Of a stretch of 64,000 nucleotides of DNA, positions 9,670-21,603 are shown in pieces. Position numbers and translations under genes: made by a program. Source of the stretch: Angustibacter luteus (lineage in GTDB: Bacteria > Actinomycetota > Actinomycetes > Actinomycetales > Angustibacteraceae); NCBI RefSeq assembly GCF_039541115.1, contig NZ_BAABFP010000005.1, forward strand, positions 294,447 to 358,446, read 5' to 3'. Within the stretch, counting starts at the first letter, position 1; each line of letters begins with the position of its first letter. The notes under the pieces are model-generated. The model did no database searches. It saw only the letters and a list, made by a program, of their open reading frames with translations, and was not told the DNA's origin.

Positions 9670-9791
9670 GCCCGTCCGGCCTGCGAACCCGCCGCGAAAC
9701 CCGCTCGGCCACGCCGGTGCGACGTCGATACGATCAGGCGGACCGGCTCCAGTCCGGCGTACCACCCACCGAGCAAGCCCAGGAGGCCTCC

Positions 9792-11783
9792 GTGTCCGCC
9801 CAGATCACCGTGTCCGTCGCCGGGAGCGAGCGATCGGTCGCGGCGGGGACGACGGCCGGCGAGCTCTTCGCGGACGACACCCGAGGGCCCCAGGCCGTCG
9901 TCGTCGCCCGGGTCGGTGGCGAGCTGCGCGACCTGGACCACGAGCTGGCCGACGGGGACGTCGTCGAGCCGGTCACCGTCGACAGCGAGGACGGCCTGGC
10001 CGTGCTGCGGCACTCGACCGCGCACGTGCTCGCCCAGGCGGTCCAGCAGATCAACCCGAAGGCGCGGTTGGGCATCGGACCGCCCGTGCGCGACGGCTTC
10101 TATTACGACTTCGACGTCGAGGTCCCGTTCACCCCGGACGACGTCAAGGCCCTCGAGAAGGCCATGCAGCGCATCATCAACGAGGGCCAGACCTTCAGCC
10201 GGCGCGCCGTCTCGGACGACGAGGCCCGCGCCGAGCTGGCCGACGAGCCCTACAAGCTCGAGCTGATCGGGCTCAAGGGTGGCGCGGCCGAGGACGCGGC
10301 CGAGGGTGCGAGCGCTGAGGTCGGCGGCAGCGAGCTGACCATCTACGACAACCTGCGCAAGGACGGGTCGCTGGCCTGGAAGGATCTGTGCCGCGGCCCC
10401 CACCTGCCCTCGACCAAGCTGATCGGCAACTCCTTCAAGCTGATGCGCACCGCTGCGGCGTACTGGCGCGGGAGTGAGAAGAACCCGCAGCTGCAGCGGG
10501 TCTACGGCACCGCGTGGCCCAGCAAGGACGACCTGAAGGCGTACCTGGACCGCCTCGCCGAGGCCGAGCGCCGCGACCACCGCAAGCTGGGCAGCGAGCT
10601 CGACCTGTTCTCGTTCCCGGACGCGATCGGTTCGGGGCTGGTCGTCTTCCACCCCAAGGGTGGCGTGATCAAGCGCGAGATGGAGGACTACGTCCGCGCC
10701 CGGCACATCGAGGAGGGCTTCTCGTACGTCGGCACCCCGCACATCACCAAGCAGGGCCTGTTCGAGACCTCCGGGCACCTGCCGTACTTCGCGGACACCA
10801 TGTTCCCGCCCATGGAGATGGAGGGGAGCAACTACTACCTCAAGGCCATGAACTGCCCGATGCACAACCTGATCTTCGCCTCGCGCGGCCGGTCCTACCG
10901 CGAGCTCCCGTTGCGGTTGTTCGAGTTCGGCTCGGTGTACCGCTTCGAGAAGTCCGGGGTCGTGCACGGCCTGACCCGGGTGCGTGGCCTGACCCAGGAC
11001 GACTCGCACTCCTACGTCACGGCCGAGCAGGCGCCGGCCGAGGTCAAGCACCTGCTCGACTTCGTCCTGTCGTTGCTGCGGGACTTCGGGCTGGACGACT
11101 ACTACCTCGAGCTGTCCACCCGGGACGAGAGCAAGGACAAGTTCATCGGCTCGGACGAGCAGTGGGCGGTGGCCACCAAGGTGCTCGAGGACGTCGCGGT
11201 CGCGTCGGGCCTCGAGCTGGTGCCCGACCCGGGTGGTGCGGCGTACTACGGGCCGAAGATCTCCGTCCAGGCGCGGGACGCGATCGGCCGCACCTGGCAG
11301 ATGTCGACCATCCAGTACGACTTCAACCAGCCGGCCCGTTTCGAGCTGGAGTACCAGGCGGCGGATGGCTCGCGTCAGCAGCCGGTGATGATCCACTCGG
11401 CGAAGTTCGGATCGATCGAGCGCTTCTTCGGGGTCCTGGTGGAGCACTACGCCGGTGCCTTCCCGGCCTGGCTCGCGCCCGTGCAGGTCGTCGGGATCCC
11501 GGTGGCCGAGGTGCACGAGCAGTACCTGCACGACGTCGCGGCCACCCTGCGCGCGCAGGGCGTGCGGGTCGAGGTGGACGTCGCGGACGACCGCTTCCCC
11601 AAGAAGATCCGCAACGCGCAGAAGGCCAAGGTGCCGTTCATGCTGATCGCGGGCGACGACGACGTCAGCAAGGGCGCGGTCTCGTTCCGCTACCGCGACG
11701 GCAGCCAGAACAACGGCGTCGCGGTGGACGACGCGGTGGCCGAGATCCTGGAGGCGATCCGCACCCGGGCCACCACCCCGTGA
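9792..11783 (+). CDS. thrS: Threonine--tRNA ligase
   Basis: A 663-residue class II synthetase charging tRNA-Thr. Domains in order: TGS (about 1-65), the N2 editing domain with [11 protein letters not shown] (HxxxH) and the later [10 protein letters not shown] (together the editing zinc-like site), the catalytic core with [32 protein letters not shown] (motif 2) and [21 protein letters not shown] (motif 3), and an anticodon-binding domain. GTG 9792 follows AGGAGG with 5-nt spacing and is preferred to an in-frame start at 9717. TACGAT at 9729-9734 may be the -10 box. The stop overlaps the HIT gene. Confidence 0.97.
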
Positions 11784-12346
11784 GCGAGGACGCCGGCGAG
11801 GTTGCTGCGGAGTCGGCGAACGCCTTCGTGGGGGAGCCGGACGGTTTCGAGCGCCTCTGGACGCCGCACCGGATGGTCTACCTCGGGGGCGAGAACAAGC
11901 CCACCGACGCCACGCCGGCGCAGTGCCCGTTCTGCCGGGCGCCGACGCTGGACGACGAGGCCGGTCTGGTCGTGCACCGCGGCGAGTCCACGTACGTCGT
12001 GCTGAACCTGTACCCGTACAGCCCCGGCCACCTCATGGTGTGCCCGTACCGGCACGTCAGCGACTACATCGAGCTGACCGATGACGAGACGGTCGAGATC
12101 GCCGAGCTGACGAAGCAGGCGATCCGCACGCTCGCAACGGTTTCGGGGCCACACGGCTTCAACGTGGGGATGAACCAGGGCGCGGTCGCCGGGGCCGGCA
12201 TCGCCGCGCACCTGCACCAGCACGTCGTCCCGCGGTGGGGCGGCGACTCGAACTTCCTCCCGATCATCGCCCGCACCAAGGCCCTCCCGGTCCTGCTGGG
12301 GGACACGAGGCAGCAGCTCGCCGAGGCGTGGGGCGCCACGGCATAA
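11780..12346 (+). CDS. HIT-family AP4A phosphorylase-like protein
   Basis: A 188-residue HIT protein with the catalytic triad region [12 protein letters not shown] (HxHxHxx) and an upstream CPFCRAP zinc-type pair. Its place after thrS matches Rv2613c of M. tuberculosis, an AP4A phosphorylase that cleaves the diadenosine tetraphosphate made by aminoacyl-tRNA synthetases. That coupling makes biochemical sense here. The GTG start overlaps the thrS stop (GTGA). Confidence 0.9.
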
Positions 12347-12363
12347 CGATCCCGAATGGCTGG

Positions 12364-12372
12364 TTGTCCACA
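12364..12372 (+). other. DnaA-box-like sequence (TTGTCCACA)
   Basis: TTGTCCACA is the high-GC actinobacterial DnaA box. It lies in the 77-bp gap between the HIT and HNH genes. The surrounding 14 bases (CTGGTTGTCCACAG, 12360-12373) recur exactly ahead of rel. Confidence 0.4.
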
Positions 12373-12411
12373 GATCCGTTGCGGGACAGGCATTCTGTCG
12401 GTGGTCGCGCG

Positions 12412-12417
12412 TAGGTT
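12412..12417 (+). promoter_or_regulatory. -10 box of a leaderless start
   Basis: TAGGTT lies exactly 6 nt before ATG 12424. There is no ribosome-binding site, so the HNH gene is probably translated from a leaderless mRNA. Confidence 0.5.
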
Positions 12418-12423
12418 CGAGGC

Positions 12424-13794
12424 ATGTCATCCAGCCCGGTCGCACCCGCCAGCGAGGCGTCCGCCGCGCTGGTGCAGGTGCTGGCCGGGCTGGGCCGGCT
12501 GGCCGCGGTGGAGTCCTGGCAGGTCTCGGACGACGACCTCGCGGGTGCGGTGGCGGCGCTCGACCGGGTGACCCGCCTGGCCCAGGCCCACGGCACGCGA
12601 CTGCTGGCCGAGGCCGGCTCACGAGGGCTGCCCGGCCAGGCCGGGCACGCCCGGCTGGAGCACTGGCTGTCGGCGCAGCTGCCGACGACGAACCCGCGAG
12701 CCGCAGCCGCTCAGGCGCGGCGGGCCGAGCGGCTGTTCACCTCCGCCGTGGCGGCCGAGCTCGGGCCGACACGCGAGGCCCTCTTGGCCGGGGCGCTCTC
12801 GGTGGAGCAGGCGGACGTGGTTGCCGGCACGGTCGAGGCGCTCGTCCCGCCCGCCCTGCCGGCGGGCGTGGTCCCGGACGTCGCGGTCTGCGAGGGCCAG
12901 GCGTTCCTCATCGAGCAGGCGGCGCACTTCGACCCGTTGCGGCTCCGCCGGTTGGCCACCTACCTGCGGCACCGCCTCGACCCCGACGCCGACGAGCGGC
13001 TAGCCCACGACGAGGACGCCCAGACCAGAGCCCGGGCGCTGACCCTCGCCAGCACCTCGTCGGGGATGGTGCACGTCGAGGGACTGCTCACCCAGGTGTG
13101 CGGCGCCGCCCTGCGGACGGCCCTCGACGCGTGGACGGCACCGCAACCCGCCGCCGTCGGCGCCCCTGACCCCAGGTCGGCCGCGCAACGACGGCACGAC
13201 GGCCTCCAGCACCTTGCCGAGCGGGCCATCGCCGCTCCCGAGCTGCTCCCGACGACGCACGGCAGTCCCTATCGAGTCGTTGTGACGGTCCCGCACGAGA
13301 CGCTGGCCGCGGCTGTCGTCGGCGCCAAGGTCACGGGCTTGGCGCCCGCGACGATGCCCGACGGCACCGCGCTCAGCTCCACCACCCTGGCCACCCTCAC
13401 CTGCACCGCCGACCTCCTCCCCGTCGTGATCGACGGCGTGGGCAACCCGCTGGACGTCGGCCGCACGCAGCGCTCGTTCACCGCGAGGCAGCGGCACGCC
13501 CTCTCAGTGCGCGACCGCGGCTGCACCTGGCCGGGCTGCGGCGCGCCACCCGAGTGGACAGATGCGCACCACCTGCAGCCCTGGTCGGACGGCGGCTCCA
13601 CCGACCTCGACAACGCCGCCCTGCTCTGCGGCCACCATCACCGCTACGTGCATCGCACCAGCCAGACCGGTCGCCTCGTCGACGGCGAAGGGCACTGGGA
13701 CACCGGCCCACCGCGCGACCGCCCGCCGCATCCCACCATCACCCGAGCCACCCGACTTCTCGACGCCCTCGCACGCCGATGGCGCACGCCCTGA
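12424..13794 (+). CDS. DUF222/HNH endonuclease domain protein (13E12-repeat family)
   Basis: A 456-residue protein of the actinobacterial 13E12/REP type. The N-terminal DUF222 region (about 1-290) is helical and Ala/Leu-rich. The C-terminal HNH nuclease (about 355-415) reads CTWPGCGAPPEWTDAHHLQPWSDGG and continues to TDLDNAALLCGHHHRYVH, with Cys pairs and the HH/N/H catalytic residues intact. The family is multicopy in actinobacteria and often linked to mobile or phage DNA; its biological role is unsettled. It interrupts the thrS-HIT-pgsA order known elsewhere. The start is probably leaderless. A DnaA-type box lies upstream and a large hairpin downstream. Confidence 0.88.
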   Translation: MSSSPVAPASEASAALVQVLAGLGRLAAVESWQVSDDDLAGAVAALDRVTRLAQAHGTRLLAEAGSRGLPGQAGHARLEHWLSAQLPTTNPRAAAAQARRAERLFTSAVAAELGPTREALLAGALSVEQADVVAGTVEALVPPALPAGVVPDVAVCEGQAFLIEQAAHFDPLRLRRLATYLRHRLDPDADERLAHDEDAQTRARALTLASTSSGMVHVEGLLTQVCGAALRTALDAWTAPQPAAVGAPDPRSAAQRRHDGLQHLAERAIAAPELLPTTHGSPYRVVVTVPHETLAAAVVGAKVTGLAPATMPDGTALSSTTLATLTCTADLLPVVIDGVGNPLDVGRTQRSFTARQRHALSVRDRGCTWPGCGAPPEWTDAHHLQPWSDGGSTDLDNAALLCGHHHRYVHRTSQTGRLVDGEGHWDTGPPRDRPPHPTITRATRLLDALARRWRTP

Positions 13795-13860
13795 GGGCAG
13801 AACAGGGACCCCTTGGCGGCGCTGCTGCGCCGCGCCGACGATCGTCGATCGAGGACCCAG

Positions 13861-13933
13861 CGTGGGCGGCGGAACCCGGCGGGCGGCGTCAAACGAGCTT
13901 GCGAGAGCCGCCCAGAGGGTTCCGCCGACCACG
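13861..13933. terminator. Long imperfect hairpin with conserved 20-nt loop
   Basis: Outer arms 13861-13877 and 13917-13933 pair over 17 positions with one mismatch; inner arms 13881-13887 and 13907-13913 pair perfectly. The loop begins at 13888 with GTCAAACGAGCTTGCGAGAG, which is the exact reverse complement of 23288-23307 in the hairpin after pdxS. It sits where the HNH gene (+) meets the HTTM gene (-) and includes the HTTM stop codon, so it may end transcription from both sides. There is no U tract. A 7-bp hairpin at 13816-13833 precedes it. Confidence 0.55.
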
Positions 13934-14761
13934 CGTCACCGAGCCCACCCAACCCGGCACCAACACGACCTTCTCCAGCGGCAGGAACGCCAACAGGCAG
14001 ATGACGAGCGGCAGGAAGTGGATCTTCAGCAGCAGGTAGGTCGTGAGGTGGAAGCCACTGAAGATCGCGATCGCCAGGTAGAGCGCCCTGTCGCGCAGGA
14101 ACAGCAGGATCGGCGAGAGCGTCTCGAGGATGATCAGCGCCCACTGCGAGGCGACGACCGCCCACGGCCAGCGCAGCAGCTGGTCGGCGAGGGAGGTTCC
14201 GCGGCGGACGAACGCCCAGGTGAAGATGGCGCTGTTCGGCCAGCCCCACCCGCCGAAGCGAATCTTCGCGACGGCCGAGAGGAAGTACGTCGCCACGACG
14301 CCGACCTGGATGCACCGCAACGCCCAGCCGGCGGCCTCGCTGACCCCGGTGTCCCGCCAGCGAGCCCGCCCGACCGTCGGCAGCACCAGCAGCGCGATCA
14401 TCAGCGCGGTGTGGTCGTGGTCGATCTTCCCGTAGGAGAAGTTGTTGGAGACCCAGTCGAGCATCCCGGCGGCGCACACCCACCCGGCCAGTCTCGGCAG
14501 CCGCCCGGCCGCGGCGACCAGCGCGCTCACCACGATCACGAGGGCCAGCACCCGCACGTAGTCGTGGCTGGGCGCGGGCAGGTGGAACAGCGTGCGGATG
14601 CCCAGCGGCTTGTACAGCTGCTCGGGCGCGTCGCCGTGCGACCAGGCGCCGTTGGAGATCTTCCACATGTCGAACAGCACGAACAGGTAGATGGCGGTGC
14701 GCAGCACGGCCACCCGGGCCAGCGGCACCTCCGGCGCGGCCCAGCGTCGCAGCGCGTTCAC
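13889..14761 (-). CDS. HTTM-domain membrane protein, copy B
   Basis: A 290-residue multi-pass protein of the HTTM (vitamin K-dependent gamma-carboxylase-like) type. It aligns without gaps over its first 170 residues to copy A at 15222-16088: LARVAVLRTAIYLFVLFD, YKPLGIRTLFHLP, YGKIDHDH at 110-117, SEAAGWALRCIQVGVVATYFLSAVAKIRFGG (about 141-171), VRRGTSL, and a C-terminal FHLTTYLLLKIHFLP. In known members the fold carboxylates Glu or has uncharacterised roles in the membrane; no reaction can be assigned here. The GTG start overlaps the stop of the WPFG protein before it. It is the last gene of the leftward operon. Confidence 0.82.
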   Translation of the reverse strand: MNALRRWAAPEVPLARVAVLRTAIYLFVLFDMWKISNGAWSHGDAPEQLYKPLGIRTLFHLPAPSHDYVRVLALVIVVSALVAAAGRLPRLAGWVCAAGMLDWVSNNFSYGKIDHDHTALMIALLVLPTVGRARWRDTGVSEAAGWALRCIQVGVVATYFLSAVAKIRFGGWGWPNSAIFTWAFVRRGTSLADQLLRWPWAVVASQWALIILETLSPILLFLRDRALYLAIAIFSGFHLTTYLLLKIHFLPLVICLLAFLPLEKVVLVPGWVGSVTRGRRNPLGGSRKLV

Positions 14762-15225
14762 GGCGTCCCGGCCAGGGGCTGCGGGTCGAGGGGGTCCACG
14801 ACAGTCCAGGTCGCCAGCACCTCGTGCGTCGTCCCCGCGACCCGGCCGTCGTGCAGGTGCGTGACGTCGTCCACCAGCCGGACCTCGCGGTACCGCGGCC
14901 ACTCCGGGTGCCGGCGGGCCGCGGCGACCGCGATGTCCTGCAGTCGTGCCGGGTCCGCCTGGATGAGTTTCGCCTGGTCCTCGATCTCGGCTCTCCGCAG
15001 CCCGACGCCGCCGGGGGTGAGCGGAACCCGCACCGTGTCGCCGTCCACCGTGACCGCCTCGACACCGGGGGAGTTGACCTGCCCGTCGTCCGGTACCGAG
15101 AACGCGTACTGGCCCATCGACCCGAACGGCCACTCGCGGTCGCTGCCGACTAGCGTGCCCAGCAGCAGGGCGACCGAACCGACGAGCAGCAGGGTGAGCC
15201 GCCAGGCGTAGGAGGCCCTGCTCAC
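14758..15225 (-). CDS. Small membrane-anchored WPFG protein, copy B
   Basis: A 155-residue protein with one N-terminal membrane anchor (about 7-27) followed by an extracytoplasmic domain that opens with EWPFGSMGQYAF. Later VPLTPGGVGLRRAEIEDQAKLIQADPARLQDIA matches VGLSPSSIGLNRAEVEGRSGQIEAHPAMLGTLA of copy A, so the two are paralogues. Small proteins with a WPF-type motif after a single anchor are found next to HTTM genes in other bacteria; their job is unknown, and partner or substrate of the HTTM protein are both possible. It overlaps both neighbours by GTGA. Confidence 0.75.
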   Translation of the reverse strand: MSRASYAWRLTLLLVGSVALLLGTLVGSDREWPFGSMGQYAFSVPDDGQVNSPGVEAVTVDGDTVRVPLTPGGVGLRRAEIEDQAKLIQADPARLQDIAVAAARRHPEWPRYREVRLVDDVTHLHDGRVAGTTHEVLATWTVVDPLDPQPLAGTP

Positions 15226-16088
15226 GGGGCCGGGACGTCGTCCGGGGCCGCCGTCGCGCGTCGCGCACGCCACCAGGCGAACAGCCGGTCGCGATACTCC
15301 TCCAGCGGCAGGAAGGCCAGCAGCATCACCAGGTGCGGCCAGAAGGCGATGGTGATGGCGGAGTAGGTGGCCGCGTGGAACAGGTACCAGCCCAGCACCA
15401 TGAGCCGACGCCAGCGCTCGGGCACGAAGAAGATCGTCCAGGACAGCAGCTCGGCGGCCATGATCAGCCACTGGCTCAGGTGCAGCAGCCACGGCACGTG
15501 CAGCAGCTGCTCGCCGAGCGGGGTGCCCCGGCGGACGACGGCGCGCGCCAGCGTCGCCGAGTTCACCCACTCGGGGCCGCCGAACCGCAGCTTGGCCACA
15601 CCGGACAGGACGTACGTCGCGATGGCCCCGAGCTGGACGGCCCGGATCGCGAAGCCGGCCGCCTCGCTGAGCCGCTTGTCGTGCAGGTGCGCCGTGCCCA
15701 CGGTCGGCAGCAGCAGCAGGGCGAGGATGAAGTCGCCGCGGTCGTGGTCGACCTTGCCGTAGGCGAACGCGACGTACTGGTACCAGGCCCAGGTCAGGGC
15801 CACGAACCACCCGGCCGCCCGCGGGTAGCGCCCGGTCATGGCGACGAGTGCGCCGACGACCGAACCCCACTTGAGCAGCTCGACGAGTAGCACCGTCGCG
15901 GCCGGCAGGTGGAAGATCGTCCCGATGTGCAGCGGCTCGTACCAGACCGGGTCGGCGTAGCCGTGGTACCAGCCGGACGTGTGCAGGAACACGACGTCGA
16001 CGATCACGAACGCGTAGACCGCGAGCCGCAGCAGGGCCACCCGCTCCAGCGGCATGGGGGCGAACAGCCACCCGCGCAGCCGGTTCAC
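15222..16088 (-). CDS. HTTM-domain membrane protein, copy A
   Basis: A 288-residue HTTM-type membrane protein, paralogous to copy B. Shared landmarks fall at identical residue numbers: LERVALLRLAVYAFVIVD (14-31), FHLP (59-62), YGKVDHDR (110-117), SEAAGFAIRAVQLGAIATYVLSGVAKLRFGG (141-171), then VRRGTPLGEQLL and FHAATYSAITIAFWPH. About six to eight hydrophobic segments are present. The conserved His, Lys and Asp residues cluster near membrane borders, as expected for a membrane enzyme, but no reaction is assigned. The GTG start overlaps the upstream WPFG gene's stop. Confidence 0.83.
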   Translation of the reverse strand: MNRLRGWLFAPMPLERVALLRLAVYAFVIVDVVFLHTSGWYHGYADPVWYEPLHIGTIFHLPAATVLLVELLKWGSVVGALVAMTGRYPRAAGWFVALTWAWYQYVAFAYGKVDHDRGDFILALLLLPTVGTAHLHDKRLSEAAGFAIRAVQLGAIATYVLSGVAKLRFGGPEWVNSATLARAVVRRGTPLGEQLLHVPWLLHLSQWLIMAAELLSWTIFFVPERWRRLMVLGWYLFHAATYSAITIAFWPHLVMLLAFLPLEEYRDRLFAWWRARRATAAPDDVPAP

Positions 16089-16561
16089 GAGCCGGCCTGC
16101 CAGACGGCGATCTCGGTCTCGCGGACCTCACCGGTGGGGACGCGGTCCGCCAGCACGGTCTCGCGGCGCAGCAGCCGGACGGCGGACCACGGCTCGTCGT
16201 GCGGGCGCAGCCGGGCGTGGCTCGCGGCGAGGGTGCCGAGCATCGCGGGGTGGGCCTCGATCTGCCCGCTGCGACCCTCGACCTCGGCCCGGTTCAGCCC
16301 GATGGACGACGGGCTCAGGCCGACGTCGTGCCAGGCCGGGTCGGACTCGGTGCGGACCTGCACGGCGAACGCGATCACGGAGCCGGACGGCGCCGACGAC
16401 GTCGCGAACATCCGCCAGGGCCCGAACGGCCACCAGTCGTCCTGACCGACCACGGAGCCGGCGAGGAACAGCAGGGAGAGGCCGCCGAGCACGCCGACCC
16501 GCCACGCACGACGACCAGGGCTCAGCCGAAGCGTCTCGTCGGCAGCCAGGCGGGTTCGCAC
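16085..16561 (-). CDS. Small membrane-anchored WPFG protein, copy A
   Basis: A 158-residue protein: a positively charged N terminus, one membrane segment (about 22-40), then QDDWWPFGPWRMFATSS at 40-56 and a soluble domain ending EIAVWQAG. It is homologous to copy B (155 residues), though the sequences have diverged well beyond recent duplication. The start is 9 nt downstream of the EF-G-like gene's stop and the end overlaps HTTM copy A, placing it second in a five-gene leftward run. Confidence 0.75.
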   Translation of the reverse strand: MRTRLAADETLRLSPGRRAWRVGVLGGLSLLFLAGSVVGQDDWWPFGPWRMFATSSAPSGSVIAFAVQVRTESDPAWHDVGLSPSSIGLNRAEVEGRSGQIEAHPAMLGTLAASHARLRPHDEPWSAVRLLRRETVLADRVPTGEVRETEIAVWQAGS

Positions 16562-16570
16562 CCGCCGATG

Positions 16571-18742
16571 CTAACCGTGCGCCGGGGTGTGGACCGGCGC
16601 ATCCGCGCTGTCGGCGAGTATCCGTTCGGCCACGTTCGCGGGCACCGGATCGTGGCGCACGTAACCCCGAGTAAACACGCCGGTACCGTGCGCGACCGAC
16701 CGCAGCTCGATGGCGTACCGGGCCAGCGACGTCGCCGGGACGTCGGCGCGCACGGTGCTGCGCCCGTTCCCCAGCGGCTCGGTGCCGGTCACCCGCCCCC
16801 GCCGCGACGACAGGTCCGTCATCACGGCGCCCACGTACTCGTCGTCCACCGTGATCTCCACCTCGTCCACCGGCTCGAGCAGCCGCAGCCCCGAGGCTGC
16901 GGCGTCCTCCAGCGCCAACCCGCCGGCCTGCGCGAACGCCGCGTCGCTGGAGTCGACCGAGTGCGACTTCCCGCCGGTCAGGGTGACGCGGACGTCCGTC
17001 AGCGGGTAGCCGGCCATCAGGCCGCGCTCGGCCCGGGCCCGCACACCCTTCTCCACGCTCGAGATGTACTGCCGCGGCACGGATCCGCCGACGACCTTGT
17101 CGACGAACTCCAGCCCGCTGCCCGGGGGCAGCGGCTCGACGTCGATCTCGCACACCGCGAACTGCCCGTGCCCGCCGCTCTGCTTGACCAGCCGGCCCCG
17201 CCCGGTGCCGGCCGACTGGAACGTCTCGCGCAGCGATACCCGGTGCGCGATGGCCTCGACCTGGACGCCGTAGCGGTCCTTGAGCCGGTCCAGCACGAGC
17301 GCGACGTGCGCCTCACCCATCGCCCACAGCACCAGCTGCTGGGTCTTGGGGTCGTGCTCGATCCGGACGGTCGCGTCCTCCACGGTGAGCCGGCCGAGAG
17401 ACTCCGCCATCTTCTCCTCGTCCGACGGCGAGGCGGCCCGGATCGCCACGGGCAGCAAGGGTTCGGGCAGTACCCACGGCTCGATCAGCAACGGGTTGTC
17501 GATGTCGGACAACGTGTCGCTGGTCTCCGCCCGGGTCAGCCGAGCCACCGTGCAGATGTCGCCGGCGATGCAGCGGCCGGTCGGGCGCAGCGTCGCGCCG
17601 AGCGGGCTGGTGAGCACGCCCACCTTCTCGTCGACGTCGTGGTCCTCGTGGTTCTCCAGCGTCGCTCCCGCGAACCGTGCGCTGTGACCGGAGACGTGCA
17701 CCGCGGTGTCCGGGTGCAGGGTGCCGGAGAAGACCCGCACCAGGCTGACCCGCCCGACGTACGCGTCGGTCGTGGTCTTGATGACCTCGGCGACCAGCGG
17801 CCCGCCCGGGTCGCAGCTGATCGGGCTACGCGGGTCGCCGTCCGGGCTGGTGACGGCGGGCAGCGGATGCGCCAGCGGTGACGGGAAGCCCTGGGCGAGG
17901 ATCTCCAGCAGCTCGTGCACGCCCACGCCGTTCAGGCCGACCACCGGCAGCACCGGGAAGAAGGACCCCCGCGACACCGCCCGCTCCAGGTCGGGGACCA
18001 GGATCTCCAGCCCCACCTCCTCGCCGCCCAGGTAGCGGTCCATCAGGGCGTCGTCCTCGGACTCCTGGATGATCGCCTCGATGAGGTCCGAGCGCTTGCC
18101 CTCGACGAGCTCGCGGTGCTGCGGGTCGGCGTCGCGCACCTCGGGCGCCATCCGGCCGCTGTAGTCGTACAGCTGCAACGAGAGCAGGCCGATCAGCCCG
18201 GCCACGGGGTCGCTGTCCGACCCGGCCGCCCCCTCGTCGTGCAACGGCAGGTACAACGGCACCACGCCCTCGCCGAACACCCGCTGACACACCGCGACGG
18301 ACTCGTCGAAGTCGGCTCGCGGCTGGTCGAGCTTGGTCACCACGACGGCCCGCGGCATGCCGACCGAGGCGCACTCGTCCCACAGCAGGGCGGTGGCGCC
18401 GTCCAGGCCGTCCACCGCCGAGATCACGAACAGGGCGGCGTCCGCACCGCGCAGCCCTGCGCGCAGCTCACCGACGTAGTCCGGGTGGCCGGGGGTGTCG
18501 ATCAGGTTCAGCTTGATGCCGGCGTGCTCGGTGCTGGCGACCGCGACCGACACGGAACGGCGCTGCTTGCGGGCCTGCTCGTCGAAGTCCGTGACCGTCG
18601 TGCCGTCCTGCACCGTCCCCGGCCGGGAGACGGCACCGGTCGCGGCGAGCAACGCCTCGACCAGTGTCGTCTTGCCGCTGCCGGCATGACCGACGAGGAC
18701 GACGTTGCGCACCCGCTCCGGTGCGGTGGCCTCGTGCGCCAT
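16571..18742 (-). CDS. Elongation factor G-like GTPase (EF-G2/FusA2 type)
   Basis: A 723-residue translational GTPase paralogue. The GTPase motifs are GHAGSGKTT (G1), DTPGHPD (G3) and VVTKLD (G4; the usual NKxD has Thr in place of Asn, as in other EF-G-like paralogues). Domains II to V follow, including the domain IV stretch RGRLVKQSGGHGQFAVCEIDVEPL. It resembles M. tuberculosis FusA2 and the EF-G-like gene beside pgsA in Streptomyces, so it is not the main EF-G. The role is unknown; ribosome rescue or stress translation are possibilities. The ATG at 18742 follows GGGAGG by 5 nt. It leads the operon carrying the WPFG/HTTM pairs. Confidence 0.88.
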   Translation of the reverse strand: MAHEATAPERVRNVVLVGHAGSGKTTLVEALLAATGAVSRPGTVQDGTTVTDFDEQARKQRRSVSVAVASTEHAGIKLNLIDTPGHPDYVGELRAGLRGADAALFVISAVDGLDGATALLWDECASVGMPRAVVVTKLDQPRADFDESVAVCQRVFGEGVVPLYLPLHDEGAAGSDSDPVAGLIGLLSLQLYDYSGRMAPEVRDADPQHRELVEGKRSDLIEAIIQESEDDALMDRYLGGEEVGLEILVPDLERAVSRGSFFPVLPVVGLNGVGVHELLEILAQGFPSPLAHPLPAVTSPDGDPRSPISCDPGGPLVAEVIKTTTDAYVGRVSLVRVFSGTLHPDTAVHVSGHSARFAGATLENHEDHDVDEKVGVLTSPLGATLRPTGRCIAGDICTVARLTRAETSDTLSDIDNPLLIEPWVLPEPLLPVAIRAASPSDEEKMAESLGRLTVEDATVRIEHDPKTQQLVLWAMGEAHVALVLDRLKDRYGVQVEAIAHRVSLRETFQSAGTGRGRLVKQSGGHGQFAVCEIDVEPLPPGSGLEFVDKVVGGSVPRQYISSVEKGVRARAERGLMAGYPLTDVRVTLTGGKSHSVDSSDAAFAQAGGLALEDAAASGLRLLEPVDEVEITVDDEYVGAVMTDLSSRRGRVTGTEPLGNGRSTVRADVPATSLARYAIELRSVAHGTGVFTRGYVRHDPVPANVAERILADSADAPVHTPAHG

Positions 18743-18854
18743 GCATCCTCCCAAGCCTGGTCCGGCCGCCGAATGGTCCCGATCACGGCTCGTCCCACCC
18801 TGGCCCGAGCGACCCGCGGACACAAGCGCTCGACGCCGGTCGCTCAGGCCTGGA

Positions 18855-18860
18855 TACGAT
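18855..18860 (+). promoter_or_regulatory. -10 box of a leaderless start
   Basis: TACGAT lies 6 nt before GTG 18867. No ribosome-binding site separates it from the start codon, suggesting a leaderless first cistron for the PIM operon. Confidence 0.5.
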
Positions 18861-18866
18861 CGGCCG

Positions 18867-19493
18867 GTGCTGAACCGCTTCGCGCGAGCCCTGTTCACCC
18901 GGCTGCTGACCCCCGTGGCCGGGTTCCTGCTGCGCCTGGGCATCAGTCCGGACGTCGTCACGCTGGTCGGCACCCTCGGCGTCAGCGCCGGGGCGCTGGC
19001 CCTGTACCCGACCGGTCACCTGCTCGCCGGGACGCTGGTGATCACCGCGTTCGTCTTCAGCGACACCGTGGACGGGATCATGGCGCGCGCCTCGGGACGG
19101 TCCAGCTCGTGGGGCGCCTACCTGGACTCCACGCTCGACCGGGTCGGGGACGCCGCCATCTTCGGGGGCCTCGTGCTGTGGTTCACCGGCGACGGCGACG
19201 ACCGGCTCACCGGGGTGCTCGCGCTGGCCTGCCTGGCCTTGGGCGCGGTCGTGTCGTACTCCAAGGCGCGGGCCGAGGGGCTCGGGATGACCGCCAACGT
19301 CGGCATCGCCGAGCGGGCGGACCGGCTGGTCGCCGTTCTGGTCACCACCGGCCTCGTCGGCCTCGGCCTGCCCGTCGTGGTGCTGACCGTCGTGCTGGGC
19401 GTGCTCGCCCTGGCCAGCCTGATCACGGTGGTGCAGCGCATGCTCGAGGTCCGCCGGCAGGCGCTGCGGTCCGCTCCGCCGGCCAGCCCGTGA
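18867..19493 (+). CDS. pgsA: CDP-alcohol phosphatidyltransferase, probable phosphatidylinositol phosphate synthase
   Basis: A 208-residue membrane enzyme with the full CDP-alcohol phosphotransferase signature DGIMARASGRSSSWGAYLDSTLDR (DGxxARx8GxxxDxxxD), two metal-binding Asp pairs and about six membrane segments. In actinobacteria the copy at this locus (Rv2612c, PgsA1) joins CDP-diacylglycerol and inositol-1-phosphate to make phosphatidylinositol phosphate. The next two genes use that lipid, which supports PI rather than PG synthesis. GTG 18867 is probably leaderless. The stop overlaps the acyltransferase start. Confidence 0.9.
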   Translation: MLNRFARALFTRLLTPVAGFLLRLGISPDVVTLVGTLGVSAGALALYPTGHLLAGTLVITAFVFSDTVDGIMARASGRSSSWGAYLDSTLDRVGDAAIFGGLVLWFTGDGDDRLTGVLALACLALGAVVSYSKARAEGLGMTANVGIAERADRLVAVLVTTGLVGLGLPVVVLTVVLGVLALASLITVVQRMLEVRRQALRSAPPASP

Positions 19494-20461
19494 CCCCTGC
19501 GCCCGGCCCCGTCGGCCCCAGCCGCCTCGAGCGCGCGCGGGAGCGGCTCGGCTACCTGGCGTACTCCGCCGGGTGGCGCATCGTGCGGCTGCTGCCCGAG
19601 GCCGTGGCGTACCGGACCTTCGACGGCATCGCCGACCTCGCCTGGCGGCGGCGGGGCAGCGGCGTCCAGCGCCTCGAGGCGAACCTGGCCCGGGCCCGGC
19701 CCGACCTGGATGCCGACGACCTGCACGAGCTCGCCCGCAGTGGCCTGCGCTCGTACCTGCGCTACTGGTGCGACAGCTTCCGGCTGCCGGACTGGGACGA
19801 GCAGCGCATCGTCTCCACCGTCCGCACCGAGGGCGACGAGCCCGTCCGGGCGGCGCTCGCGTCCGGGCAGGGCGTCGTCATGTTCCTGGGGCACCTGGGC
19901 AACTGGGACCACGCCGGCGCCTGGGCGACCCTGCAGCTGCAGCCCGTCACCACGGTTGCCGAGCGGCTCAAGCCCGAGCAGCTGTTCGACCGGTTCGTGA
20001 CCTTCCGCGAGCGGCTCGGCATGACGATCATCCCGCTGACCGGCGGCTCGGACGTCTTCCGCTCCCTGCTCCGGGTGCTGCGGGGCGGCGGTTTCGTGCC
20101 GCTGCTCGCCGACCGCGACCTGACCGACGGCGGGGTCGAGGTGGACTTCCTCGGTGAGCCCGCACGGATGGCGGTCGGGCCAGCCGCACTGGCCCTGGCG
20201 ACCGGCGCCGCGTTGTTCGCCGTGACGATCCGGTACGAGCCCACGTCCCGGGGCCGGCACGGGATCGTCATCACGTGGCACCCGCAGATCGCCACGGACG
20301 ACGTCGGTACGGGGCGCGCGGCGGTCACCGCCCTGACCCAGCGCTGCGCGGACCACCTCGCCGCCGCGATCCGGTCCCACCCGCAGGACTGGCACATGCT
20401 GCAGCGGGTGTTCACCGCCGACCTCGACCCGGCCCGCGTCACCAGCACGAGGCCGGCATGA
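19490..20461 (+). CDS. Phosphatidylinositol mannoside acyltransferase (LpxL/HtrB-like)
   Basis: A 323-residue lysophospholipid-acyltransferase-fold protein with the catalytic HxxxxD box in FLGHLGNWDHAGAW and a later GGGFVPLLADRDLTDGGVEVDFLG (the substrate-binding block of the LpxL/HtrB family). By position it matches PatA (Rv2611c), which acylates the mannose of PIM1/PIM2 on the cytosolic face of the membrane. The GTG start overlaps pgsA and the ATGA stop overlaps pimA. Confidence 0.9.
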   Translation: MTPAPGPVGPSRLERARERLGYLAYSAGWRIVRLLPEAVAYRTFDGIADLAWRRRGSGVQRLEANLARARPDLDADDLHELARSGLRSYLRYWCDSFRLPDWDEQRIVSTVRTEGDEPVRAALASGQGVVMFLGHLGNWDHAGAWATLQLQPVTTVAERLKPEQLFDRFVTFRERLGMTIIPLTGGSDVFRSLLRVLRGGGFVPLLADRDLTDGGVEVDFLGEPARMAVGPAALALATGAALFAVTIRYEPTSRGRHGIVITWHPQIATDDVGTGRAAVTALTQRCADHLAAAIRSHPQDWHMLQRVFTADLDPARVTSTRPA

Positions 20462-21603
20462 GGATCGGCATCGTCTGCCCCTACTCGTTCGACGTCCCCG
20501 GCGGGGTGCAGTTCCACGTCCGGGACCTGGCGGAGCACCTGATCGGGCAGGGGCACGTGGTCAGCGTGCTCGCCCCGGCGGACGACGATACCCCGGTCCC
20601 GTCGTACGTGAGCCCGTCGGGCCGTGCGGTTCCGGTGCCCTACAACGGATCCGTGGCAAGGGTGAACTTCGGCCCGGTGAGCGCCCGCCGGGTGCGCCGG
20701 TGGCTGGAGGCCGGGCAGTTCGACGTCCTGCACATCCACGAGCCGGTGACGCCGAGCCTGTCGCTGCTCGCGCTGTGGGCGTACGACGGCCCGATCGTGG
20801 CGACCTTCCACACCTCGAACCTGCGCTCGCGCGCCATGCAGGCGGCCTACCCGCTGATGCGGCCCAGCCTGGAGAAGATCAGCGCCCGCATCGCGGTCAG
20901 CGAGGACGCCCGGCACACCGTCACCACCCACATCGGGGGCGACGCGGTGGTCATCCCGAACGGCGTGTTCGTCGACCGGTTCGCGGATGCCCCGGTGCGG
21001 CCGGAGTGGCAGGGCACGGCGGACGCCCCGACCGTCGCCTTCGTCGGCCGGCTCGACGAACCGCGCAAGGGACTGCCGGTGCTGTTCGAGGCTATGCCGA
21101 GCGTGCTCGCCGACCGGCCCGGCCTGCGCCTGCTGGTCGCCGGCCGCGGCGACGCCGAGGAGGCCGCGGAGCTGCTCGCGCCGAACCTGCGCCCCGCGGT
21201 CGAGTTCCTGGGCATGGTCGACGACCAGGCCAAGGCGTCCCTGCTGCGCTCGGTCGACCTCTACGTCGCGCCGCACACCGGCGGTGAGAGCTTCGGCATC
21301 GTGCTGGTCGAGGCGATGAGCGCCGGAGCGCCGGTGCTGGCCAGCGAGCTGGACGCCTTCCGTCGGGTGCTGGACGACGGCGCCCTCGGCGCGCTCTTCG
21401 GCACCGGTGACCCGGTCGACCTCGCCTCGTCCCTGAGTGCCCTGCTGGCCGACGAGCCGCGGCGTGCCCAGCTGAGCGCGGCAGCGTCCGTCGCCGTCCG
21501 GCGCTACGACTGGTCCGTCGTCGCGCGCGACGTCCTGGCCGTGTACGAGACGGTCCTCGGCGGCGGCCACGTCGAGGCCGACCTGCTCGGAGGGACCCCA
21601 TGA
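20458..21603 (+). CDS. pimA: Phosphatidylinositol alpha-mannosyltransferase
   Basis: A 381-residue GT4/GT-B glycosyltransferase. The N-terminal MRIGIVCPYSFDVPGGVQFHVRDLAEHL has the Gly loop for GDP-mannose. HIHEPVTPSLSLLAL and FHTSNLRSR carry the His residues of PimA, and the GT4 E-x7-E motif is GGESFGIVLVEAMSAGAPVLAS. It transfers the first mannose to phosphatidylinositol. The order pgsA-patA-pimA is the known mannolipid operon. Confidence 0.93.
   Translation: MRIGIVCPYSFDVPGGVQFHVRDLAEHLIGQGHVVSVLAPADDDTPVPSYVSPSGRAVPVPYNGSVARVNFGPVSARRVRRWLEAGQFDVLHIHEPVTPSLSLLALWAYDGPIVATFHTSNLRSRAMQAAYPLMRPSLEKISARIAVSEDARHTVTTHIGGDAVVIPNGVFVDRFADAPVRPEWQGTADAPTVAFVGRLDEPRKGLPVLFEAMPSVLADRPGLRLLVAGRGDAEEAAELLAPNLRPAVEFLGMVDDQAKASLLRSVDLYVAPHTGGESFGIVLVEAMSAGAPVLASELDAFRRVLDDGALGALFGTGDPVDLASSLSALLADEPRRAQLSAAASVAVRRYDWSVVARDVLAVYETVLGGGHVEADLLGGTP

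Follow-up and report, generated by a model that had tools for sequence, protein, structure and literature searches.

What might an HTTM protein do in a bacterium where its gene directly follows that of a small, membrane-anchored partner? The question is raised by a stretch of 64,000 nucleotides from Angustibacter luteus (contig NZ_BAABFP010000005.1, positions 294,447 to 358,446; hereafter the window, whose numbering is used for all features), in which two such pairs lie in tandem on the reverse strand, each encoding a protein of a novel family, here called WPFG, and an HTTM protein. To our knowledge, few HTTM proteins of bacteria have a defined role. The vitamin K-dependent carboxylase (GGCX; VKGC for the family) is an animal enzyme that modifies blood-clotting proteins, and HTTM of the window resembles its membrane core in predicted fold and retains its catalytic residues. 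The reading that we favour, with a probability of roughly 0.55, is that WPFG and HTTM of each pair together form a single integral membrane enzyme of two subunits, belonging to the VKGC/SdpB superfamily, in which WPFG would complete the active site. The features concerned are the following.

16085..16561, reverse strand: WPFG-A, 158 amino acids, with an anchor helix (15-38), the linker WWPFGPWRMF (43-52) and an extracytoplasmic alpha/beta domain (56-158)
15222..16088, reverse strand: HTTM-A, a multi-spanning membrane protein of 288 amino acids with the GGCX membrane-core fold
15744..15746, reverse strand: codon of HTTM-A His115, counterpart of GGCX His160 in the Glu pocket
15591..15593, reverse strand: codon of HTTM-A Lys166, counterpart of GGCX Lys218, the catalytic base
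14758..15225, reverse strand: WPFG-B, 155 amino acids, paralogue of WPFG-A in which the linker EWPFGSMGQY replaces WWPFGPWRMF
13889..14761, reverse strand: HTTM-B, 290 amino acids, paralogue of HTTM-A with the identical set of invariant residues
14417..14419, reverse strand: codon of HTTM-B His115, by alignment to HTTM-A
14264..14266, reverse strand: codon of HTTM-B Lys166, by alignment to HTTM-A
16571..18742, reverse strand: EF-G2 (EF-G-like) gene, assigned by NCBIfam, an upstream neighbour judged to lie outside the WPFG-HTTM system

The HTTM core and its strict pairing with WPFG

The AlphaFold2 model of HTTM-A (predicted local distance difference test, pLDDT, 88.7) returned GGCX in Foldseek as all of its top 16 matches (probability 0.95-1.00), the next one falling below 0.12. 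In the structural alignment (VIA), residues 1-276 were placed on GGCX 48-327 with a Z of 17.1 over 261 residues and a root mean square deviation (rmsd) of 3.9, as compared with a Z of 7.3 for the best unrelated row, at a sequence identity of 15-17%. The same relationship emerges from profiles, since that of 67 HTTMs aligned at full length (E 2e-5) with a VKGC profile made of human GGCX and four bacterial single-chain VKGCs from plasmids (Bernardetia, Paracoccus and two from Persicobacter), which carry HTTM and lumenal domain within one protein; a single GGCX sequence, like the forced global mode, gave no useful result in hhalign. GGCX residues H160, K218, W223, F286 and H287 correspond to HTTM H115, K166, W174, F237 and H238, each of them invariant (67/67). 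In GGCX, vitamin K hydroquinone is deprotonated by Lys218 acting as base, and H160, W223 and F286 form two pockets together with M401 and M402 of a linker, these methionines separating the Glu pocket from the vitamin K pocket (PMC12589487). As judged from fold and sequence comparison, HTTM is thus homologous to the VKGC core with its catalytic residues retained, which we count as established, and the invariance of these residues argues for VKGC-type catalysis. No VKGC relatives were found in a search of viral contigs.

Since HTTM-A has zero Pfam matches, PF05090 (HTTM) included, and HTTM-B scores 24.9 bits against PF05090, under the curated cut-off of 27.7, both could escape routine annotation; their assignment to HTTM is therefore based on fold and profile comparison and not on a Pfam score.

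The pairing was surveyed in 198 genomes of the class, 37 of which contain WPFG according to a profile search; each of the copies detected (42/42) is followed by an HTTM gene on the same strand. A separate single-protein search with HTTM-A returned the identical 37 genomes plus one contig-edge fragment, and in a scan of genome contigs WPFG lies immediately upstream of HTTM at all 23 loci. WPFG-HTTM is therefore a compact, strictly paired system: the co-occurrence expected in the original prediction was found, with both genes present in the same 37 genomes, and the contrary outcome that it had named, WPFG and HTTM genes occurring apart in most genomes, was not seen. At one locus (L042, 7273-8102, genome G007) the HTTM gene is broken over two reading frames, by a frameshift or an assembly error, and the adjoining WPFG gene has an in-frame TAG within the profile match; the locus L041 (G021) belongs to a different genome.

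The WPFG protein and the proposed enzyme

WPFG, whether searched singly or as 26 members, has no match in Pfam, NCBIfam or the PDB sequences, so that a family absent from current libraries now gains a name and a testable role. In the predicted structure, WPFG-A is anchored by a single membrane helix (15-38), from which a linker of low confidence, holding the WPFG motif, leads to a beta-alpha-beta domain. The hypothesis that WPFG is the part of VKGC that follows the core, namely last helix, linker and lumenal domain, was recorded before the structure searches were made. Among 996 chains re-aligned (VIA) out of the 1000 best, ranks 1 and 2 were GGCX 330-492, over the whole WPFG-A model, and this segment starts where the HTTM-A match (48-327) stops. 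Profile comparisons are suggestive in the same direction: against the C-terminal part of VKGC, 3/100 column shuffles score as high as WPFG (p about 0.03), and against SdpA (E 0.046) 2/200 shuffles are as good, the register being in each case the expected one. On visual comparison, SWRMM of VKGC, PWRMF of WPFG-A and WPFFT/WAFFT of SdpA stand at the place of the GGCX Met401/Met402 linker, with SMGQY in B-type WPFG, and these linkers may correspond to one another. WPFG is conserved along its entire length, with invariant RAE and EG glutamates (Glu95 in 68/68). Altogether, WPFG may tentatively be equated with the post-core part of VKGC and with SdpA.

In the enzyme that we propose, HTTM would be the catalytic membrane core, to which, we infer, a quinone (menaquinol in this lineage) would bind near Lys166 and His115. 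WPFG, as a separate chain, would supply the last membrane helix, the linker walling the active site and the substrate-receiving extracytoplasmic domain, and the pair would then modify or mature an exported polypeptide. Different substrates are probable for A and B, both of them ancient versions.

Several results weigh against this proposal. Foldseek with the WPFG model gave spurious matches only (probability <=0.15), with no GGCX among the top ones. The structural match of WPFG-A to GGCX 330-492 is weak (Z 3.9 and 3.6, rmsd 8.6), and such low Z values would be dismissed were it not for the positional agreement. The WPFG profile gives E values of 0.05-0.15 against VKGC or SdpA, not significant alone. 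At the GGCX Asn159 position, HTTMs have Asp (53/67) or Ser (12/67). VKOR (PF07884) has no match in the complete A. luteus genome (G000) and is not associated with the pair, being found in 22/37 WPFG-positive and 82/161 other genomes. Around the WPFG-HTTM loci, no conserved neighbour fit to be a dedicated substrate was seen. A vitamin K cycle through VKOR was rejected on the VKOR results, and an animal-type quinone epoxide cycle is not required. In all, VKOR is present in 104/198 genomes of the class.

Closest relatives and alternative explanations

The closest relatives of WPFG-HTTM are VKGC and SdpAB. With VKGC (PF05090 HTTM plus PF22777) it shares the whole membrane-core fold (Z 17), the residues equivalent to Lys218 and His160 and to the pocket residues W223, F286 and H287, and, if the weak match (Z 3.6-3.9) is followed, WPFG in the place of the ninth transmembrane helix, linker and lumenal domain. 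It differs from VKGC in being encoded by two genes rather than one chain, with the WPFG gene upstream and not downstream of the core gene, as well as in the Asp or Ser at Asn159, the missing arch-like domain and, in A. luteus, the missing VKOR. At E 1 or 5, none of the HTTM and WPFG members matched the PF22777 lumenal domain, nor did anything in the A. luteus genome; none was found in 100 Actinomycetota genomes either, but no positive control responded there, so that this last absence is unproven.

The resemblance to SdpAB is the basis of the strongest alternative, which we hold possible although clearly less probable than a VKGC-like enzyme, namely a maturation pair of the same architecture and different chemistry, processing an exported peptide precursor without VKGC-type carboxylation. 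SdpAB is an example of an HTTM protein that, together with its small anchored partner, can act on another protein that is exported (PMC6818787). With SdpB, taken from actinobacterial operons of the SdpABC type, HTTM aligns at an E of 4e-9, better than with VKGC (E 2e-5), and SdpB itself matches VKGC with an E of 1.5e-9; the gene order agrees, with a small anchored extracytoplasmic protein encoded ahead of HTTM, and WPFG and SdpA have in common a W(P/A)F linker and a GL(N/D)R motif. By contrast, the His160 position is invariant in WPFG-type HTTMs and is occupied by Q, T or H in SdpB, which keeps Lys218, and the active site of the WPFG-type proteins is therefore nearer to that of VKGC. In addition, the SdpC family is found in 0/37 WPFG-positive genomes, whereas 4/4 SdpB genomes used as control have SdpC, which argues against simple membership in SdpABC and led to the rejection of SdpC as a substrate. 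TIGR04033 (SdpB) recognises neither HTTM-A/B nor any other protein in G000, nor any of 26 members, the homology being only distant. The SdpABC-type operons (SdpC-like, SdpA, SdpB) occur at actinobacterial loci L097, L098, L099 and L100, and their SdpA proteins carry a GW(A/P)FFT and an FGL(N/D/S)R motif.

A third arrangement is that of DUF5819 (PF19136), a small anchored protein with an NW.LFAP.P motif, whose genes adjoin HTTM genes in other actinobacteria, often in tandem (L077-L096). DUF5819 was rejected as a WPFG homologue, as the profiles show no similarity (score 11.6 vs a shuffled mean of 13.0), and its partner HTTMs, which retain Lys218 and His287, carry Gly at the His160 position and Met at that of Phe286. 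By retention of His160, the WPFG-type HTTM is thus nearer to VKGC than either SdpB or the DUF5819-paired HTTMs.

According to the original prediction, WPFG would serve its adjacent HTTM as substrate or subunit, a choice that can now be narrowed. That WPFG is the substrate, modified for instance on the conserved RAExE glutamates, would fit the strict one-to-one adjacency and the invariant RAE and EG glutamates on an exported domain. We nevertheless regard it as unlikely and favour the subunit, because WPFG is a conserved, predicted folded and anchored domain that takes, by position, the place of the GGCX stretch following the core. Its conservation extends over the full length, it shows no features of a modified or cleaved peptide, and homologous HTTM enzymes have a small protein or domain besides their substrate (SdpA besides SdpC; the lumenal domain besides the clotting factors). 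Least likely, indeed hardly probable, is that catalysis was lost and the HTTM fold retained in a protein serving as membrane scaffold, sensor or part of a transporter: no activity is known for the WPFG-type subfamily and identity to GGCX is low, but the catalytic base, pocket histidine and quinone-pocket residues, needless for a scaffold, are invariant in 67/67 HTTMs across many families.

Returning to the two-subunit enzyme, its more specific versions deserve less confidence. It is conceivable, though doubtful, that Actinomycetes possess a new split VKGC-like class for the menaquinol-driven modification of exported proteins, possibly to gamma-carboxyglutamate or another glutamate-derived product without VKOR, in two versions with different substrates; gamma-carboxylation as such is one possibility, and a slightly slimmer one. 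What makes the system useful is that it keeps the VKGC catalytic residues and carries the substrate-side part as a separate, removable protein, in tractable actinobacteria. It thereby offers a route to the function of a minimal VKGC core, to the question whether bacteria without VKOR carry out protein modification driven by menaquinol, and to the relationship between VKGC, SdpAB and the DUF5819-partnered HTTM pairs.

Duplication and genomic neighbourhood

The layout and paralogy of the double cassette are as originally described, with five leftward genes (EF-G-like, WPFG-A, HTTM-A, WPFG-B and HTTM-B), stop-start overlaps joining the last four, and HTTM motifs at identical residue numbers. All three junctions within the cassette are 4-base GTGA overlaps (16085-16088, 15222-15225 and 14758-14761), and a 9-base gap, with no overlap, separates EF-G2 from WPFG-A. 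HTTM-A and HTTM-B share 47% identity over 264 amino acids (E 2e-71) in a gapless alignment, which is why YGKxDHD (110-116) and AKxRFGG (165-171) carry the same numbers in both; WPFG-A and WPFG-B share 36% over 136 amino acids (E 4e-18). Both similarities between the sequences are far beyond chance.

The prediction that one two-gene unit was duplicated and then diverged also holds. Further tandem double cassettes are present at L003 and, within another family, in three genomes (L037, L039, L040), and the two pairs of Kineosporia (L025) are separated by 2.3 kb. Trees built from 66 pairs place the second-copy WPFGs in one clade (support 0.93); the HTTM tree has a matching grouping with weak support (0.37) that takes in two other single-copy loci. 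Patristic distances of the two proteins correlate with r = 0.87, a value that contains shared species history and is alone no evidence of interaction. A and B copies keep their partners in 6/6 double loci, with no swaps. Such co-duplication would fit the original prediction that each WPFG works only with its adjacent HTTM, but it is no proof of exclusivity. Since other families carry tandem or double loci, the trees match and partners are never exchanged, the unit must have undergone a single, ancient duplication and then been lost or moved in many lineages; A and B are thus ancient subfamilies, and the duplication is not special to the A. luteus genome. In G048, a B-type pair lies at the thrS/pgsA site (L043) and an A-type pair near ffh/amt (L036), so that the copies can separate and both persist.

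The earlier claim of a meaningful operon led by EF-G found no support. The EF-G-like gene is an ordinary member of EF-G2 (NF009377, 1103 bits vs a cut-off of 890; FusA2 of mycobacteria). It lies upstream of the pair on the same strand, within ~2 kb, in only 9/37 WPFG-positive genomes (the window, L037, L038, L040, L041, L042, L044, L045 and L046), whereas EF-G2 is far more widely distributed (125/198 genomes, mostly without the cassette). Its role as a functional leader was therefore rejected and the link is taken as positional; all nine loci sit in the thrS-HIT/pgsA neighbourhood.

That neighbourhood, common to several actinobacterial families, extends in the window from 9717 to 21603 and comprises thrS, HIT, the cassette, EF-G2, pgsA, a lipid acyltransferase and a PimA-like glycosyltransferase. 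In many families the pair lies, as here, between thrS-HIT and pgsA-acyltransferase-pimA, and in other lineages near ffh/amt/glnD/smc or near groEL; as the clusters vary by lineage and none is dedicated, the search for a substrate gene through a conserved neighbourhood was abandoned. In the window, a DUF222/HNH gene (12424-13794) separates the HIT-domain gene from HTTM-B, at the 3' end of the latter; it looks like an insertion, since HIT directly abuts HTTM in several relatives (e.g., L043 and L045).

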